Assembly (NCBI GenBank): GCA_903895855.1
Contig: CAITVN010000215.1
Location: 53,331 to 117,330, forward strand
Length of the DNA stretch: 64,000 bases
Reading direction: 5' to 3'
Source: Oligoflexia bacterium
Lineage (GTDB): Bacteria; Bdellovibrionota; UBA1018
Below, piece by piece: positions 12,579 to 20,489 of the stretch. The notes under the pieces were generated by a model. It saw only the letters and a list, made by a program, of their open reading frames with translations. It was not told the origin of the DNA and ran no database searches. How positions within the stretch are numbered: position 1 is the stretch's first letter; the number at the start of each line of letters is the position of its first letter. Both the position numbers and the translations under genes were made by a program.

Positions 12579-14222
12579 CTAGGCAACCTCTGACTCTCCT
12601 GATTCAGAAGGCTTCTTACCCGTATCCATGCTACCAGAAGTCAAAGCGGCCGCTTGCCGGGCGATTTTTCGTTTATCTAGGCCATACTTGTCGACTTTCA
12701 TGATGAGTCCTGCTCTCGAAATTCCCAATTCCTTTGCAAGCCGACTCTTATTCCAGTTAGTTCGACGTAGACCTTCTCTAATCATCGTTTTTTCAAGTTC
12801 TTCGAGTGCATCTTTGAGTTTACCTGCGACTCGAACCCCCTGAACCTTATTCTGTTCTCCAAAGTCCCGAATGCGCTGAGAAAGAAGCTCTGCATTGATA
12901 CGCACCTCTTCACCTGACAAAACAATCAACCGCTCAATCTCATTCTCGAGCTCACGAATATTGCCTGGCCAAGCGTAGTCAAAAACCTTTTCCATTGTGC
13001 GTTTAGCGAATGACTTGATTGCTACGCTTTTTTCTTTACAGCCTCGAGCCATAAAATGATCAATCAAAAGGGGAATGTCTTCTTTGCGCTCGCGAAGTGG
13101 TGGCACCACGAGGTTGATGACGTTAATTCTATAATAAAGATCTTCTCGAAACGTGCCTTCTTCAACCATTTCTTTGAGGTCTCTATTGGTGGCTGCTACC
13201 ACCCTAACATCAACCTTCTTTACGTCAGTGCTGCCTACAGGCGTCAACGAACCGTCTTGTAAAACGCGCAACAACTTTACCTGCATGGTTGGCGACATAT
13301 CTCCAATCTCATCCAAGAACAGCGTTCCCTTGTCTGCCGCTTCAAATAACCCTTTTTTGTCTCTAATCGCGCCGGTAAACGACCCCTTCATGTGACCGAA
13401 CAACTCACTGTCTAACAAATTTTCATTAAACGCAGAACAGTTCACAGTCACAAACTGAGCGTCTTTACGCGGAGAATTGTAGTGAATTGCTTTAGCTATG
13501 AGTTCTTTACCAGTACCATTTTCACCTTGAACTAACACGGTTGATTCAGAATTTTTAACTTTATCTAAGAGTGAATAGAGATCTTGCATCGGCTTTGATT
13601 TGCCAATCATAGACCCATAACTGTAGCGCGAACCCAACTCCGAATTGAGGGCATTAATTCTCTCTTCTCGTTTACTAATTTCTGTGTGAAACGTCACAAT
13701 TTCCTGAGCCACTAAATCTACCAGTTCAAAAAAATATTTTCGTTCGCCTTCACTCAAAATTCGCATTCTAGCAAGAGCACTATCAAATAGATCTCCTTCA
13801 AGCCCTAAAGCTTCTATTTGAAGCCTTGCTGATTGTTTGACTTCGGCCGAAATTGGTTTATCGATATATGAATAGGCTAAAACAGTTCCTAAGTAATCGT
13901 TGTCAATTGCGATTCTCGACAGAACCATTTGATCGCATCCAGTTGGCCCCGTCATACTGAGGTGACCCTGCCCACTTTGAAAAAATTTCTCACTGGCAGT
14001 TGCCATCGCTGAAAGCAGAAACTCTCTGCCTTTGTCTTTCGGAAGCAAGTTGGCGCAAATCGGGTTTCTAAATTCCCGCTGCCGATCTAGAGGATCATAA
14101 TTTCGCACATGTCCTTTTTCGTCGAGAAAAAAAATCTCTGTGTGAAACCATTGTCCAAGAATGGTCTCTAGCTTTCTAATGACGTGAATGTGTTTGAGTT
14201 CTTCCCAATTTATAATCGACAT
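12579..14222 (-). CDS. Sigma-54-dependent transcriptional activator
   Basis: This 547-residue protein has three parts. Residues 1-205 form a sensory domain, possibly PocR- or GAF-like (FRNPICANLLPKDKGREFLL, then LSRIAIDNDYLGTVLAYSYI). Residues 210-440 are the AAA+ domain with Walker A GENGTGKE, the sigma-54 contact loop GSFTGA in place of the more usual GAFTGA, Walker B GTLFLDEIGDM and the arginine-finger region PPLRERKEDIPLL. The C-terminus has a Fis-type helix-turn-helix (NWNKSRLAKELGISRAGLI). It should open promoters held by RpoN polymerase in response to an unknown signal. No receiver domain is present. Its target genes are not evident from the neighbours. Confidence 0.92.
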   Translation of the reverse strand: MSIINWEELKHIHVIRKLETILGQWFHTEIFFLDEKGHVRNYDPLDRQREFRNPICANLLPKDKGREFLLSAMATASEKFFQSGQGHLSMTGPTGCDQMVLSRIAIDNDYLGTVLAYSYIDKPISAEVKQSARLQIEALGLEGDLFDSALARMRILSEGERKYFFELVDLVAQEIVTFHTEISKREERINALNSELGSRYSYGSMIGKSKPMQDLYSLLDKVKNSESTVLVQGENGTGKELIAKAIHYNSPRKDAQFVTVNCSAFNENLLDSELFGHMKGSFTGAIRDKKGLFEAADKGTLFLDEIGDMSPTMQVKLLRVLQDGSLTPVGSTDVKKVDVRVVAATNRDLKEMVEEGTFREDLYYRINVINLVVPPLRERKEDIPLLIDHFMARGCKEKSVAIKSFAKRTMEKVFDYAWPGNIRELENEIERLIVLSGEEVRINAELLSQRIRDFGEQNKVQGVRVAGKLKDALEELEKTMIREGLRRTNWNKSRLAKELGISRAGLIMKVDKYGLDKRKIARQAAALTSGSMDTGKKPSESGESEVA

Positions 14223-14329: not shown

Positions 14330-15355
14330 TTAGAGTGACCAAACCTTCATCGCACGATGAACACATTCCATCGAAATACTTGTTATTGCAGAGTTTTCAA
14401 TTGGATCCCCGTCGACCTCGATAAACGACGTCTTTTCGCCGGTCTCAGACGTGGTGGGCATTTCACTAGCAATATCAGATAGCTCGATATCCCATTTTCT
14501 GGCTGACCCAACGGTCACTCCAGGCACGTTTTTCCACCATCGAAAGGGCAATTCCTTGAGCCACTGAGGCAAACGAACTATGAATTTTTCGCGACTTTGC
14601 CACTCGAATGCAATCAAATCAAGAAAGCCATCATCGATGTGACAACCTTTTAGCCACTCAACCCCTCCCGCATTAAATCGACCATTTAGAAAAAAACCGC
14701 TAAACAAGGGGCCTTCAAAAACGATCTGGCCGTCGCCGGTGATTCGCACGTTTGTCGGGCTCACTTCTGGAAGACCGGTGATCGTCTGCAAGAGATAAGC
14801 AAGGCCAGTTGCACCCAGAAAAGAGCGCCCTAATATTCCCACCCGATCTTTGGCTCTTTGAACTACCCTACCCCCATAACCAAAACTGGAAACATTGACC
14901 AAAGCCCTTCTAGATAAAAGCTTCTTATTCTTATCAAAAAAATCAACTCGAACAACATCAACTTCCCTGGCCATCTTCTTCTCAATCGCACCCAGAGCCA
15001 ATTTCAGACGGTTTTTTTCAGATATCATGCTCTTACCGGCCAAAGTTCTGAAAAAATCATTCCCTCTACCGAAAGGAATGATGCCAATACTAATTTGATT
15101 TCCAAGCCACTCACCCGAAGTCGAAAATAGTGATGAAGCCACATCTGAAACTGTCCCATCGCCGCCAATGAGCACTATTTTATCAACTCCACGTGCAAGA
15201 AAAGATTCAACTTGGCTTCGAATTTCGCCTTTCTTCGTCCACTCAATTTCACAGCTCGCATCGCCTAGACTTTCGAGAACCCTCGGTTCGAATAAATCCC
15301 ATGCATTAGACGCCCCACCTGAAGCAGGGTTCACGAGTATCACTGTGCGATTCAT
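14330..15355 (-). CDS. Diacylglycerol kinase-family lipid kinase
   Basis: This 341-residue protein carries the DAGK catalytic domain. The N-terminus VILVNPASGGA and the GGDGTVSDV nucleotide loop are typical, followed by ISIGIIPFGRGNDFFRTLAG. The C-terminal half has GRFNAGGVEWLKGCHIDDGFLDL, as in YegS/DagK-like enzymes. These kinases phosphorylate diacylglycerol or related lipids, and the exact substrate cannot be read from sequence. Its ATG overlaps the stop codon of the Fe-S protein gene (ATGA). Together with the AGPS-like oxidase two genes upstream, this suggests a joint role in lipid metabolism. Confidence 0.9.
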   Translation of the reverse strand: MNRTVILVNPASGGASNAWDLFEPRVLESLGDASCEIEWTKKGEIRSQVESFLARGVDKIVLIGGDGTVSDVASSLFSTSGEWLGNQISIGIIPFGRGNDFFRTLAGKSMISEKNRLKLALGAIEKKMAREVDVVRVDFFDKNKKLLSRRALVNVSSFGYGGRVVQRAKDRVGILGRSFLGATGLAYLLQTITGLPEVSPTNVRITGDGQIVFEGPLFSGFFLNGRFNAGGVEWLKGCHIDDGFLDLIAFEWQSREKFIVRLPQWLKELPFRWWKNVPGVTVGSARKWDIELSDIASEMPTTSETGEKTSFIEVDGDPIENSAITSISMECVHRAMKVWSL

Positions 15356-16314
15356 AATTTATCTAAACTTTCTTGCGACAAAATATCGAAACACTGATCA
15401 GACCTCAACCCAACAGACAAGCGAAAATGACTCAAGCACCGATCACCAAATCCAATGACTCCGTCACAGCGAGACCTCACTTTTTCCCAAATTTCTCGAG
15501 CCATTTGCTTAGATTCACGCTCAAATAAGTAGCGATAAGCACCCTCACCCCCGCAATCAATGCAGTCTTTTCCGTGCTCAAAATCAATCACCAACTCAAT
15601 TCCTCGCTTTTTTGCAGCCTCAATAAACCGGTTAACTTCTTCAAACCTCGCGAGTCGCCTCGAAAAGAATACCGACTCGTGCAAATACCATCTCTTGCCT
15701 TCTAGTTTTCTCCAGTCCAAACGCTCCCAGTCAAAAATCAAGTCTGACTTGATTCCTAGTTCTTTCAAAACATAAGCTATTTTTGGCTCAAATACCTCAA
15801 CCTTCCTCGTACCATCGGCATGGTATCCGGCATTGTTCAACTGAACTTCTAAGCGTTTTTGCCCAATAGCCGTTTCGCCTAATTCAAATGCAAGATCACC
15901 CCACAAATCTAACTGATCACTCAACTGCAAAACAACTTCTCGGGCTTTCGACCATTTGAATCGAGTTCGGGCCGCCACCAAATTCTTACCCACATCTACT
16001 TTGTGAAGGCAATACTCTGTACAACGCCCGCAGCCGGTGCAAGCGTATATCGGCCACAACTCACCTAATGATGTCTGGCTCGCCGGCCACTTCGCTTCTT
16101 TGTACAATACCGAATTTTTATTACACGGAGTCACAGCATCCGATCCGGTTACCACCGCAACGGGGCAACTAAAGCGGCAAAGCTCAGGGCAAAACACACA
16201 GGCCACAGTATCAGCAGTTTGTTCATTGGCCGAAAACTGAAGCAGCCAATGGTGAACGAGCTGCTTAGAGGCCCATTTTGCCGGGATTAAAGCGATTTTC
16301 CGGATCGAATCCAT
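15352..16314 (-). CDS. Iron-sulfur protein of GlcF/heterodisulfide-reductase type
   Basis: The N-terminal third of this 320-residue protein holds two cysteine clusters. One is CVFCPELCRFSCP near residue 38, and the other is CTGCGRCTEYC near residue 93, a 4Fe-4S ferredoxin pattern of the kind that accompanies FAD oxidases such as GlcD. The C-terminal part has scattered cysteines (KDCIDCGGEGAY) but not the full CCG motif of heterodisulfide reductase. It probably passes electrons from the neighbouring FAD protein. The gene starts 50 bases inside that FAD gene and overlaps the kinase gene by 4 bases, so the three genes form one unit. Confidence 0.85.
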   Translation of the reverse strand: MDSIRKIALIPAKWASKQLVHHWLLQFSANEQTADTVACVFCPELCRFSCPVAVVTGSDAVTPCNKNSVLYKEAKWPASQTSLGELWPIYACTGCGRCTEYCLHKVDVGKNLVAARTRFKWSKAREVVLQLSDQLDLWGDLAFELGETAIGQKRLEVQLNNAGYHADGTRKVEVFEPKIAYVLKELGIKSDLIFDWERLDWRKLEGKRWYLHESVFFSRRLARFEEVNRFIEAAKKRGIELVIDFEHGKDCIDCGGEGAYRYLFERESKQMAREIWEKVRSRCDGVIGFGDRCLSHFRLSVGLRSDQCFDILSQESLDKL

Positions 16315-17836
16315 TCTTCACCTTTTCAAATATTGAAATAAACGATTTTTTTTCTTTTCTCATCCACTCTGATTTTTGAAGTCCAACTCCGTGATGGTGA
16401 CTCAATGTCGCACCAGCCTCAAGAGCCGCCGCCAAAATTTTATTCCAAACCTCATCATAATGGCTGACAGAATTTTCTTTTCCAGCACTGTGGGCAACTA
16501 GCGTAAAATAGATATTCGCTCCGGTGTGATAGAAATGGCTTAAGTGAGCCATGATCATTCCAAAACCAACTGATACACTTTTCACTGCACGATACACTTC
16601 ATTCAAATTCTTCCAGCTAGCTGCAATCTCAAAAGTGTCCAAAATCATGTGATCGTGACTTAAGATAAGTTGTTGCTTGTACGAAACATCGTAGCGGTGT
16701 TGCCACCAATGCTCGCCAATACTCGGCCCGAGCCACTCAATTTCCATTTCGCTCGCGATTTGGCGAAGCTCTTGTTCTTGAGCCTCCATCAGACGTTGAG
16801 ACGACTCTTCAAACACTGTGACAATTGCAGCTCCCGATTTGAATCCAGAGTCTTTCAAAACCTTCGAGTTCAAAGCCATCGATGTTTCAAGAGGATCATA
16901 AATTCGAAAAACCGACGGTCTCAAGCCACGCTGAATGGCAGCTCTTGAAAAATCAATTGCTTGATCAATACCTTTAGCCGACCAACCTGCAAAAACACGC
17001 TTGATATCATCGAATCGGTGAATCTGCAGACAGGCTGCTGTGAGAAACCCCAGAGTGCCTTCGCTCCCCAAGAGAAGTTGAGTCCAATCGGGACCCATCG
17101 CGCTGCGCGGAGCCCTACCCGTGGTAATCACTTCTCCACTGGGTAAAACAATTTCGAGACTTAAAACCATGTCTTCAATTTTTCCGTACTTAGTCGAGAG
17201 TTGGCCAGCCGAACGCGACGCCAGATATCCGCCCAACGAGCTGCAGTAAATCGAGGATGGAAAATGCCCTAACGTGTATCCTTGAGAATTCAACTCTCGC
17301 TCGAGATTTTCACCAATCCAACCAGCCTCAGCCCAAACTGTTTGAGAGATCTCGTCGAGTTCCCTAATTTTTCGCATTTTCTTGAGATCAACAATGACTC
17401 TGGGTCTAGATTCCCAATCAGGAGGAATGGTGCCACCACAGACCCCTGACCCAGCGCCATACGGAAACAAGCTCACATTAACCCGATTTGCCCACTCGCA
17501 AATTGCACTCACCTCTTCAACGGTTCTTGGCCAAATGACCATATCAACCGGATATTCATCAACTGAGAGCGGCCCATTTTCTCTCAATTCCAACAGCTTT
17601 CTTGGCCAGAGGTCTTGCGAATAGCTACTCAATTGAAACGAATCGAAGCTATAAACCTCTTCAGCAAGCGAAGCCGAAAATAATGACTCAGACCTCAATT
17701 TCGATTTTGACTTGCCATCCTTGTTTTCCTGAGTTCGAGACCCACGAGATAACTGCCCCCCCAGTTCAACGAGTTCTTTGATTTTAGTTTTTCTTTCAAG
17801 CGCCGACATAACGTCTCTCTTTCCAACCAGACCCAT
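16265..17836 (-). CDS. FAD-binding oxidase resembling alkylglycerone-phosphate synthase
   Basis: This 523-residue protein has the PCMH FAD-binding fold: WPRTVEEVSAICEWANRVNV, then FPYGAGSGVCGG and the GQLSTKYGKIEDMV block. A C-terminal SHHHGVGLQKSEWM resembles the active-site histidines of alkyl-dihydroxyacetonephosphate synthase rather than those of glycolate or lactate oxidase. It could make ether lipids or oxidise a 2-hydroxyacid, and the neighbours (Fe-S protein, lipid kinase) do not settle which. The track start at 17836 has no clear ribosome site. ATG at 17809 (MSALERKTKIKE) with GGAAAGAGAG upstream is a good alternative. Confidence 0.85.
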   Translation of the reverse strand: MGLVGKRDVMSALERKTKIKELVELGGQLSRGSRTQENKDGKSKSKLRSESLFSASLAEEVYSFDSFQLSSYSQDLWPRKLLELRENGPLSVDEYPVDMVIWPRTVEEVSAICEWANRVNVSLFPYGAGSGVCGGTIPPDWESRPRVIVDLKKMRKIRELDEISQTVWAEAGWIGENLERELNSQGYTLGHFPSSIYCSSLGGYLASRSAGQLSTKYGKIEDMVLSLEIVLPSGEVITTGRAPRSAMGPDWTQLLLGSEGTLGFLTAACLQIHRFDDIKRVFAGWSAKGIDQAIDFSRAAIQRGLRPSVFRIYDPLETSMALNSKVLKDSGFKSGAAIVTVFEESSQRLMEAQEQELRQIASEMEIEWLGPSIGEHWWQHRYDVSYKQQLILSHDHMILDTFEIAASWKNLNEVYRAVKSVSVGFGMIMAHLSHFYHTGANIYFTLVAHSAGKENSVSHYDEVWNKILAAALEAGATLSHHHGVGLQKSEWMRKEKKSFISIFEKVKNGFDPENRFNPGKMGL

Positions 17837-17888
17837 TTTGTGATTGGCTTACTTCCCTCTTCACAGTAGTGATCGTCTCAAACAAGTC

Positions 17889-19193
17889 ATGGAATCACCC
17901 ATTCACTCTTCAGTTCACTCTTCAGGAAAACCAAACCTTGATTCAAGGTACCGATTCTTCGATGCGGCCTCAACGACAAAGTGCTGCGAAGAGGCGCTTG
18001 AGACATTTCGTCATTACTCGCAAGTTGAGTTTGCGAATCCATCAAGCCAGCATCTGGCGGGCCGAGCAGCAAGCTCCATCATTGACAAGGCTCGAGCTAC
18101 GTTTGCTCAACACTTCAAAGTCGAACCGAACCAGGTCATTTTTACTAGCGGCGGGACCGAATCAGATAATCTGGCGATTTTGGGCGTCGTAGCTAGTGTC
18201 AAAAGCAACAAAGAGGCCCTAAAAATTTTCTACTCCTCAACTGAACATCCTGCCGTTACCCAGTGCTGTGCGTCGCTCAAGAGTGATGGACTTCATGCGC
18301 AACCGATCGACGTTGACAGTCGGGGGCAAATTGTCAAAGCGGCACTCGATCAGGCGATTGCTTCAATAGTGCTCGACCCGACCCCTTTGGCTCTTTTCTC
18401 TATTCACCACGTCAATAACATTACAGGGGCCTTAATCCCGATTGAGTTTCTGGCACAACACATCAAGTCACAGATCCCCTCAGCCGTATTTCACTCCGAT
18501 TGCGTCCAGTCCTTCTGCAAAACCGCCACCCCAGTTAGCCACAAAAATCAGCCAATTGACCTGCTGTCGATCTCGGGCCACAAGGTACACTCACCCAAGG
18601 GCATAGGCGCACTCATCGTTCTCAACAAAGACCTGCTCAATTCCAAACCAAAAAGCGGGCAGGGCCTACGGCTACTTCCTACTTCTTTCGGCGGAGGACA
18701 AGAAGGCGGATTTCGCTCCGGTACTCAAAGCCCCGCACTCATCGCCGCTTTTGCCGAGGGCATGAAATACACGTTCAGAAATCAACAGCAACTATTTAAC
18801 ACTGCATTGACCTTCAATCTTGAAATGCGCAAATTTTCACAAGAGCGCAAACTGGGCATTCACTTCAATTCGGGGCTGGCCGACTCAAAATTAACAAAGA
18901 GTGAGTTCATTCCGCACATCATTAACCTCTCAGTACCCGGCTTTCCGGGCGCCACGATTGCACGGTTATTAGAAGAAAAGGGCTTCCTCGTCTCGACCGG
19001 CAGCGCCTGCCATTCAAGCGAAACAAAGCCTGACCCAGTACTCGAAGCCATGAAACTGAAAAAAGATCTAACCACCTCCGCCATTCGGGTATCTATCGGA
19101 GACACGCTCGATTCTCAAGACTTCCCCCCATTCCTAATAGCTCTAGAAGAGGTCATCATTCGCTTAAGAGCCCTAAAGCCTGGCCGACGCTAA
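17889..19193 (+). CDS. Cysteine desulfurase (NifS/IscS family)
   Basis: This PLP enzyme takes sulfur from cysteine to form a persulfide. The family landmarks are clear: RFFDAASTTKCCEEAL at the N-terminus, TSGGTESDNLAI, HSDCVQSF, the PLP lysine in SISGHKVHSPKGIGAL, and the persulfide cysteine in STGSACHSSE. It lies 78 bases upstream of thiI, so it probably supplies sulfur to ThiI. The ORF track opens at a TTG (17844) only 7 bases from the divergent gene. ATG at 17889 gives a normal family N-terminus and leaves room for a promoter, so I prefer it, although neither start has a strong ribosome site. Confidence 0.88.
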   Translation: MESPIHSSVHSSGKPNLDSRYRFFDAASTTKCCEEALETFRHYSQVEFANPSSQHLAGRAASSIIDKARATFAQHFKVEPNQVIFTSGGTESDNLAILGVVASVKSNKEALKIFYSSTEHPAVTQCCASLKSDGLHAQPIDVDSRGQIVKAALDQAIASIVLDPTPLALFSIHHVNNITGALIPIEFLAQHIKSQIPSAVFHSDCVQSFCKTATPVSHKNQPIDLLSISGHKVHSPKGIGALIVLNKDLLNSKPKSGQGLRLLPTSFGGGQEGGFRSGTQSPALIAAFAEGMKYTFRNQQQLFNTALTFNLEMRKFSQERKLGIHFNSGLADSKLTKSEFIPHIINLSVPGFPGATIARLLEEKGFLVSTGSACHSSETKPDPVLEAMKLKKDLTTSAIRVSIGDTLDSQDFPPFLIALEEVIIRLRALKPGRR

Positions 19194-19271
19194 GGGTAAT
19201 GCAAAATCTCGGGTCACCCACGATCCAAAGGTTGCTAATTCGGCAGTGTCTTTGGTATCTCGTCAATTTCA

Positions 19272-20489
19272 ATGAATGTCCTTGAGCCCACCACTTTCTT
19301 ACTTCGCTATCATGAAATCGCCATAAAAGGTGACAACCGGTCCTGGTTTGAAAAACGTCTTCTCGACAATGTGAATAAACTACTCGACCGCCACTTTGCG
19401 AAAGAAGGCCTTCCAAAACGGCCGTTTCGAACTTGGCGTGAGCACGGCCGTATTTTTGTTGAGGCGATTGACTCACCCGAACTTCGCGACGTTCTCATTT
19501 GTAACTTCGGAATGACCAGCTTCAGTCCTACCCACATTGTGCCCACCGACCTTTCAATTCTGAAAGATCGCGCCGTTGAAATTTGTGAGCAAATTTTCAA
19601 AACGCGATCGGCTGAGCAACTCAAGGGACTCACCTTTCGAGTTCTCACACGAAGAAGCGAAAAGGCGCTGAAAGAGACTTCTACCGAAATTGATTGTGAG
19701 GTTGGCTCAGCCATTCAACTCAAATTTCCTGAACTGAAAGTAGATTTGAAGAATGCGAAATTCACCCTAGGCATTGAGATTCGCAATCGAAGATCCTATA
19801 TTTGGACTGAAAAAGTAAAAACTCACGGGGGCCTTCCTGCTGCAACGCAAGGCCATCTATTAGCCCTACTTTCAGGCGGTATTGACTCACCAGTTGCTGC
19901 GATTCAACTCATCAAACGGGGCGCCATTTGCTCTTTTATTCATTTTTATGGTGCACCATTTATTGGTCCCGAAGCTCTCGAAAAAGTCATGGCGTTGGCC
20001 AAGATCGTCAATCGTTACCAGCCCAAACCCCAACCTGTCTACGTAGTGAGATTCGGAGAAATTCAAGAAGAAATTGCGAAGCTGGTTGACCCAAAAATGC
20101 TAACCCTTCTCTATCGGCGACTCATGTTTGGTATCGCTGAGAGAATTGCCGCCCAAATCAATGCGCAAGCTCTAGTGACAGGTGAAGCTCTCGGACAGGT
20201 CGCAAGCCAAACCCTTGATAATATCGAAAGTGTCAGCAGCGGTCGCGCCATTAGCATCTTGAGGCCTCTGATTGCTCACGATAAAGAAGAAATTGTTGAT
20301 CTGGCAAAGAAATTCAAAACTTATGAAACTTCAATCATTGAGTCGGCCGATTGCTGCACTTTATTTGCTGACCGCCACCCAATGATTCGTTGTTCGATTG
20401 AAAAAATTCTCAAAGTCGAAGAGCTGATCAGTCTAGAATCATTGATACAAAAAGGGCTAGAAAACACAGTAGCGGCTTCAGCCACCTAG
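19272..20489 (+). CDS. thiI: tRNA 4-thiouridine synthetase ThiI, rhodanese-less form
   Basis: This 405-residue protein has a ferredoxin-like/THUMP N-terminus (about residues 1-170) and a PP-loop ATPase with LLSGGIDSPVAAIQLIKRG near residue 195. It ends soon after ADCCTLFADRHP, which holds the cysteine pair of this region. The C-terminal rhodanese domain of the E. coli enzyme is missing, as in the shorter ThiI proteins of Bacillus. It thiolates U8 of tRNA using sulfur from a cysteine desulfurase. The neighbouring desulfurase gene fits that role. ATG at 19272 gives MNVLEPTTFLLRYHEIAIKG, the expected beginning. Confidence 0.93.
   Translation: MNVLEPTTFLLRYHEIAIKGDNRSWFEKRLLDNVNKLLDRHFAKEGLPKRPFRTWREHGRIFVEAIDSPELRDVLICNFGMTSFSPTHIVPTDLSILKDRAVEICEQIFKTRSAEQLKGLTFRVLTRRSEKALKETSTEIDCEVGSAIQLKFPELKVDLKNAKFTLGIEIRNRRSYIWTEKVKTHGGLPAATQGHLLALLSGGIDSPVAAIQLIKRGAICSFIHFYGAPFIGPEALEKVMALAKIVNRYQPKPQPVYVVRFGEIQEEIAKLVDPKMLTLLYRRLMFGIAERIAAQINAQALVTGEALGQVASQTLDNIESVSSGRAISILRPLIAHDKEEIVDLAKKFKTYETSIIESADCCTLFADRHPMIRCSIEKILKVEELISLESLIQKGLENTVAASAT

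Follow-up and report, generated by a model that had tools for sequence, protein, structure and literature searches.

An operon for an AGPS-related flavoprotein, an iron-sulfur protein and a lipid kinase in an Oligoflexia bacterium

What does a flavoprotein resembling alkylglycerone-phosphate synthase (AGPS) do when its gene shares an operon with those of an iron-sulfur (Fe-S) protein and a lipid kinase? The question is raised by a 64,000-nucleotide stretch (hereafter the window) of the Oligoflexia bacterium assembly GCA_903895855.1 (contig CAITVN010000215.1, positions 53,331 to 117,330), which comprises 5.4 Mb in 244 contigs, is 93% complete and has Bdellovibrionales/Oligoflexia metagenome-assembled genomes (MAGs) as its named near relatives. 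An earlier reading of the sequence alone had suggested that the three gene products could make or modify an ether lipid. We propose instead, tentatively, that the operon encodes a flavodehydrogenase coupled to the Fe-S protein and working on a substrate of glycerol-phosphate or lysolipid type, together with a lipid kinase.

Gene layout and conserved pairing

The operon lies on the minus strand. Its first gene (16265–17836) encodes a 523-amino-acid flavin adenine dinucleotide (FAD) protein with PF01565 (FAD_binding_4) and PF02913 (FAD-oxidase_C) domains, both scoring well over their cut-offs; the second (15352–16314) encodes a 320-amino-acid Fe-S protein with two 4Fe-4S motifs (C39/42/46/50 and C92/95/98/102), and the third (14330–15355) a 341-amino-acid lipid kinase of the diacylglycerol (DAG) kinase family, with a PF00781 (DAGK_cat) domain and a GGDGT motif. 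The overlaps described previously were recovered at exactly these coordinates: 50 bases between the FAD and Fe-S genes (16265–16314), in which both frames are coding, and 4 bases (15352–15355, ATGA) between the Fe-S and kinase genes. The 50-base overlap and the position of the Fe-S start codon are identical in all seven relatives compared (L003, L004, L006–L010), in each of which the protein sequence of either frame is preserved, and we therefore regard the layout as inherited and under selection rather than a product of chance. For the FAD gene the start was assigned mechanically. It falls just 7 bases from that called for a divergent gene at 17844, and the real start may therefore be further inside.

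At high similarity the FAD gene has a patchy distribution, being present in 5 of the 35 genomes of the window's family and in four from two sister families. A window protein retrieved 281 candidate stretches encoding relatives from our genome collection, of which the best 80 were retained; these are mostly MAG loci, and the counts given here describe relatives of that protein rather than AGPS homologues at large. A same-strand Fe-S gene follows the related FAD gene in 55 of the 74 loci having at least 2.5 kb downstream, a pairing which spans Bdellovibrionota, Myxococcota, Asgard archaea, Thermoplasmatota, Planctomycetes and Verrucomicrobia, and a lipid kinase is additionally present in 18 of the FAD/Fe-S loci, mainly from Bdellovibrionota, Myxococcota and other 'Deltaproteobacteria'. 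Nine loci (L040–L042, L044, L050, L055, L056, L154, L155) have glpA and glpB on the same strand ahead of the FAD gene; in L079 it is glpB that lies upstream, and a Thermoplasmatota locus (L067) has the order FAD, Fe-S, GlpA/GlpO-like, Pyr_redox, GlpK. Two in-frame fusions tie the Fe-S partner to a lipid kinase and to a glycerol-3-phosphate (G3P) dehydrogenase. The first (L035) is a single protein of 605 amino acids in which the Fe-S part is complete to its usual C-terminus and is followed by a short linker and the kinase; the second (L081) joins Fe-S, BON and GlpA parts, the last of G3P dehydrogenase type (DAO and BFD domains). An assembly frameshift behind the L035 fusion was ruled out, as the Fe-S part reaches its normal C-terminus and both remaining frames are rich in stops, and chance adjacency of the genes is ruled out by the kept overlap together with the fusions.

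The eight cysteines of the two 4Fe-4S motifs are conserved in at least 90% of 27 rows aligned. The Fe-S protein scores just under the Pfam Fer4_8 cut-off, has EtfD, LutA and HdrB as the closest folds to its predicted structure (pLDDT 89), and is related to the GlpC/GlcF/HdrD/EtfD type. The third gene had previously been assigned to the DAGK family, and this holds, with a PF00781 score of 66.9 bits against a cut-off of 23.6; the kinase is the only over-cut-off PF00781 match in the whole genome, and scores 62 bits for the YegS/Rv2252/BmrU subfamily (TIGR00147), under the cut-off of 118.65.

Placement and active site of the FAD protein

Sequence, tree and predicted fold agree that the FAD protein belongs to the AGPS superclade, and the resemblance to AGPS that had first been suspected is thus borne out. 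The match to AGPS structure 2uuu (E 3e-59) ranks above D-lactate dehydrogenases (D-LDH), and the predicted structure (pLDDT 85) is nearest to AGPS (TM ~0.81), followed by D-LDH (mLDHD entries, ~0.73). The phylogeny proposed in the sequence-only reading was run by maximum likelihood on the AGPS sequences of Dictyostelium and guinea pig, five solved proteins of GlcD/D-LDH type and 76 further rows. All GlcD, D-lactate and D-2-hydroxyglutarate rows fall on one side of a split supported at 100/100 and the window protein falls on the AGPS-superclade side, so that no grouping with D-lactate or glycolate oxidases was seen. AGPS proper forms a clade of its own (100/99), outside which the window protein belongs to a clade of eight (100/99) that adjoins AGPS and L011/L012 with moderate support (85/88). 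In the best tree AGPS is nested among Fe-S-linked proteins, although an alternative with AGPS outside them was not rejected (p-AU 0.307).

Three residues of Dictyostelium AGPS, R352, Y508 and R447, are reported to be important for catalysis (PMC3509576), and correspond to Arg419, Y578 and Arg515 of the guinea-pig enzyme. The equivalents of R352 and Y508 are kept in the window protein and in practically all related rows; at its AGPS-type site the window protein has Tyr436, Arg311 and His480–482, the HHH motif, and the SHHHGVG sequence reported earlier is present. At the Arg447 position, however, all nine window-clade rows have Gln, L011/L012 have Lys, and Arg is never found in the other 77 superclade rows outside AGPS (31 of them gapped in the alignment), whereas the AGPS clade has Arg in 8 of 11 rows and Gln in the remaining 3. 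The segment from R352 to the next conserved Arg has 70 residues in the window protein against 88–89 in the two AGPS references, and is longer in the Myxococcota group; the AGPS-specific insertion (lid or gate region) was judged by the length of this segment rather than by mapping the exact gate helix. In all 29 GlcD/D-LDH rows, the sites that hold Arg, Tyr and HHHG in the window protein are occupied by Glu, His and an EH(G) motif (GEHG or AEHG), respectively. Membership of AGPS proper is ruled out by the clade placement and the Arg447 position, and membership of the glycolate/D-lactate oxidases by the tree and the residues; judged from its sequence, the FAD protein falls outside both AGPS proper and the hydroxyacid dehydrogenases of GlcD type.

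Possible function and alternatives

AGPS is redox-neutral, performing no net redox chemistry and requiring oxidised flavin (PMC3509576). Such an enzyme has no use for an electron carrier, and a conserved, sometimes fused Fe-S partner therefore speaks for a dehydrogenase. When the locus was first read, the Fe-S protein was suggested to take electrons; this is supported by the conserved pairing and the fusions, and we consider it probable that the FAD protein is an Fe-S-coupled dehydrogenase. If so, the links to GlpA, GlpB, GlpK and lipid kinases point, with somewhat less assurance, to a substrate of glycerol-phosphate or lysolipid type. Replacement of the D-lactate/D-2-hydroxyglutarate metal-site pattern (His and GEHG), with R352 and Y508 kept, is counted in favour of the same proposal. 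The FAD protein would oxidise free sn-glycerol phosphate, or 1-acyl- or 1-alkyl-glycerol 3-phosphate, to the corresponding dihydroxyacetone phosphate, using the AGPS-type site with Tyr436 as base together with His480–482 and Arg311. The electron path that we infer would lead from the reduced flavin through the two-cluster Fe-S protein to the quinone pool, as held for GlpC, GlcF and EtfD, while the kinase may phosphorylate diacyl-, monoacyl- or alkylglycerol freed by lipid turnover, so feeding or complementing the dehydrogenase.

Several observations weigh against this proposal. No member with a known activity or substrate was found. The window Fe-S protein has lost the CCG cysteines (PF02754 gave no match in it, a DCIDCGGEG remnant being all that is present), which obscures the onward electron route; throughout the window branch the CCG domains are reduced in this way, whereas they were found in the Fe-S partners of some relatives, L056 and L081 among them. 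Beside the window operon glpA-glpB are absent, and the GlpD-type match of this genome lies on a different contig, so that it is from relatives that the glycerol-phosphate link is taken. In Polyangiaceae no Fe-S gene was detected downstream of a lone FAD open reading frame of 660–700 amino acids, nor was one detected downstream of the FAD gene in some archaeal loci. Lastly, in a Verrucomicrobia/Planctomycetes branch (L090, L096, L098, L101 and similar) NEHHGIG or NEHHGVG replaces SHHHGVG and the Fe-S partner has lost cysteines in some members; its neighbours include sugar kinases and aldolases, and the substrate may therefore differ between branches.

We also considered a broader proposal, to which we attach only a small weight: that these proteins form an undescribed class of Fe-S-coupled flavodehydrogenases in bacteria and archaea, whose substrates, oxidised during the turnover of glycerolipids, are of the lysophosphatidate or alkyl-glycerol-phosphate type (or sn-glycerol-1-phosphate). 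The class would be ancestral to AGPS, which would have lost the Fe-S partner and acquired Arg447. L011/L012, which carry Lys at the Arg447 position and have no more than a short ferredoxin beside GlpAB, would then resemble intermediates. No paper on the FAD/Fe-S pair was found in the mainly open-access literature, most subscription journals lying outside the search.

The original suggestion, that the FAD protein is a true AGPS making ether lipids, with the kinase acting on alkylglycerol and the Fe-S protein as an accessory, now appears unlikely. It draws on AGPS being the top match in both sequence and fold, on the conserved Tyr, HHH and Arg352, on the neighbouring position of the window clade in the tree and on the occurrence of Gln at the Arg447 position in some AGPS-clade rows themselves. 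The ether-lipid role is nevertheless not supported, as the clade of AGPS proper excludes the protein, Arg447 is missing and the segment is the shorter one, and as AGPS chemistry is redox-neutral; we do not favour ether-lipid synthesis by this operon. Further evidence comes from the AGPS-proper genes of the phylum, which sit in a different setting: in all four Bdellovibrionota genomes with such loci (G068, G075, G082, G088) a GlpD/GlpO-type G3P dehydrogenase gene adjoins, and no Fe-S gene of the window type was found there. These AGPS-GlpD pairs (L156:4278-8544; G068:C34, G082:C105, G088:C67), which in L156 are followed by a thioester-reductase-like short-chain dehydrogenase/reductase, likely represent an ether-lipid operon differing from the myxobacterial ones. 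CarF had no match in the window genome, but control genomes were equally silent, and the PF07993 (FAR-like) matches of the window genome lie in open reading frames of 327–564 amino acids, none of multidomain ElbD size. In the same genome an open frame of 1484 residues (G000:C205:23896-24555, L172) combines BadF/BcrAD and DUF2229 domains, an architecture that we take to be of the PlsA/Ger type involved in anaerobic ether-lipid formation; it is another candidate source of ether lipids, if the organism has them.

A rather improbable alternative is a polyol or sugar-phosphate dehydrogenase that hands its product to the kinase, glycerol being one of several substrates of the superclade. FGGY kinases do lie near 26 of 84 loci, and the NEHHG branch is accompanied by xylulokinase-like kinases, KduI/IolB, a class II aldolase and a sugar isomerase, but the window branch has SHHHGVG and a lipid kinase, with no FGGY kinase nearby. 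Least probable is a D-2-hydroxyacid dehydrogenase of GlcD-GlcE-GlcF or D-lactate type with the kinase as a passenger, which would fit the Myxococcota loci, where a 330-amino-acid GlcE-like FAD protein is encoded between the FAD and Fe-S genes in a mirror of glcDEF, and the best NCBIfam match (TIGR00387, glcD, at 188 bits far under its 568-bit cut-off), but is opposed by the fully supported tree split, by Arg, Tyr and HHHG at the sites invariant in GlcD/D-LDH rows, and by the existence of Fe-S–kinase and Fe-S–GlpA fusions.

Beyond the operon, a gene for a sigma-54-dependent activator (12579–14222, minus strand) lies about 107 bases downstream on the same strand, and is also found 3' of the operon in L032/L159, L033 and L035; it is a possible regulator of the operon. 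Its N-terminal region of about 200 residues is without a Pfam match. On the other side are divergent genes (17844–20489), a cysteine-desulfurase-like gene (class-V aminotransferase) kept in L032–L035 and thiI kept in L033–L035, whose called starts leave nearly zero intergenic space to the operon. Among relatives, aspS lies upstream of the cluster in L048, L049, L052, L054, L056 and L154 (Myxococcota, a deltaproteobacterial MAG and Bdellovibrionota family f11), an arrangement that may go back to an old shared locus in which aspS-glpA-glpB preceded the FAD gene.

Comparison with known systems

With AGPS/ADPS (PDB 2uuu, 4bby) the window protein shares its superclade, FAD fold, catalytic Tyr, HHH motif and Arg352, but it differs in clade, in Gln for Arg447, in segment length, in its Fe-S partner gene and in its operon. 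The distinction matters because AGPS homologues serve to predict ether-lipid-making microbes. A Black Sea survey, for example, accepted blastp matches to Myxococcus xanthus Agps with E < 1e-30 and an identity of 30% or more, and obtained matches even in archaea (PMC11868695). The window FAD protein has 32% identity (204 bits) to a myxobacterial AGPS-clade protein, which is not the survey's own query, and archaeal relatives have 27–32%, an indication only that proteins of this kind lie at the survey's cut-off. Part of such predictions may therefore concern a different enzyme, and the residue at the Arg447 position together with the presence of an Fe-S partner gene would provide a simple first filter.

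In Mycobacterium tuberculosis the neighbouring locus tags Rv2251 and Rv2252 likewise bring together a flavoprotein, which we assume to be AGPS-like, and a DAG kinase; we know of no Fe-S gene there. Rv2251 is described as a flavoprotein and Rv2252 as a diacylglycerol kinase (PMC6689984). The ether-lipid operon MXAN_1676-1674 of M. xanthus resembles the window operon in that an AGPS-family gene is found with lipid enzymes (PMC9131029), but the partners are FAR/GNPAT-like and epimerase-like, with no Fe-S gene and no lipid kinase. GlcDEF and the D-lactate dehydrogenases share the FAD_binding_4/FAD-oxidase_C architecture and an Fe-S partner subunit, with a GlcE-like third subunit in the Myxococcota relatives, yet their metal-site pattern (His, GEHG) is replaced in the window protein, which stands 100/100 apart in the tree. 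The anaerobic G3P dehydrogenase GlpABC has a GlpC-type two-cluster Fe-S carrier like that of the window, and in relatives glpA-glpB belong to the same cluster, the Fe-S partner being fused to GlpA in one case; the window flavoprotein, however, is of AGPS/VAO rather than GlpA (DAO) type and has no glpAB at its locus. Set among these systems, the family makes it possible to test how glycerol-3-phosphate oxidation and lipid kinases are linked with the origin of AGPS.

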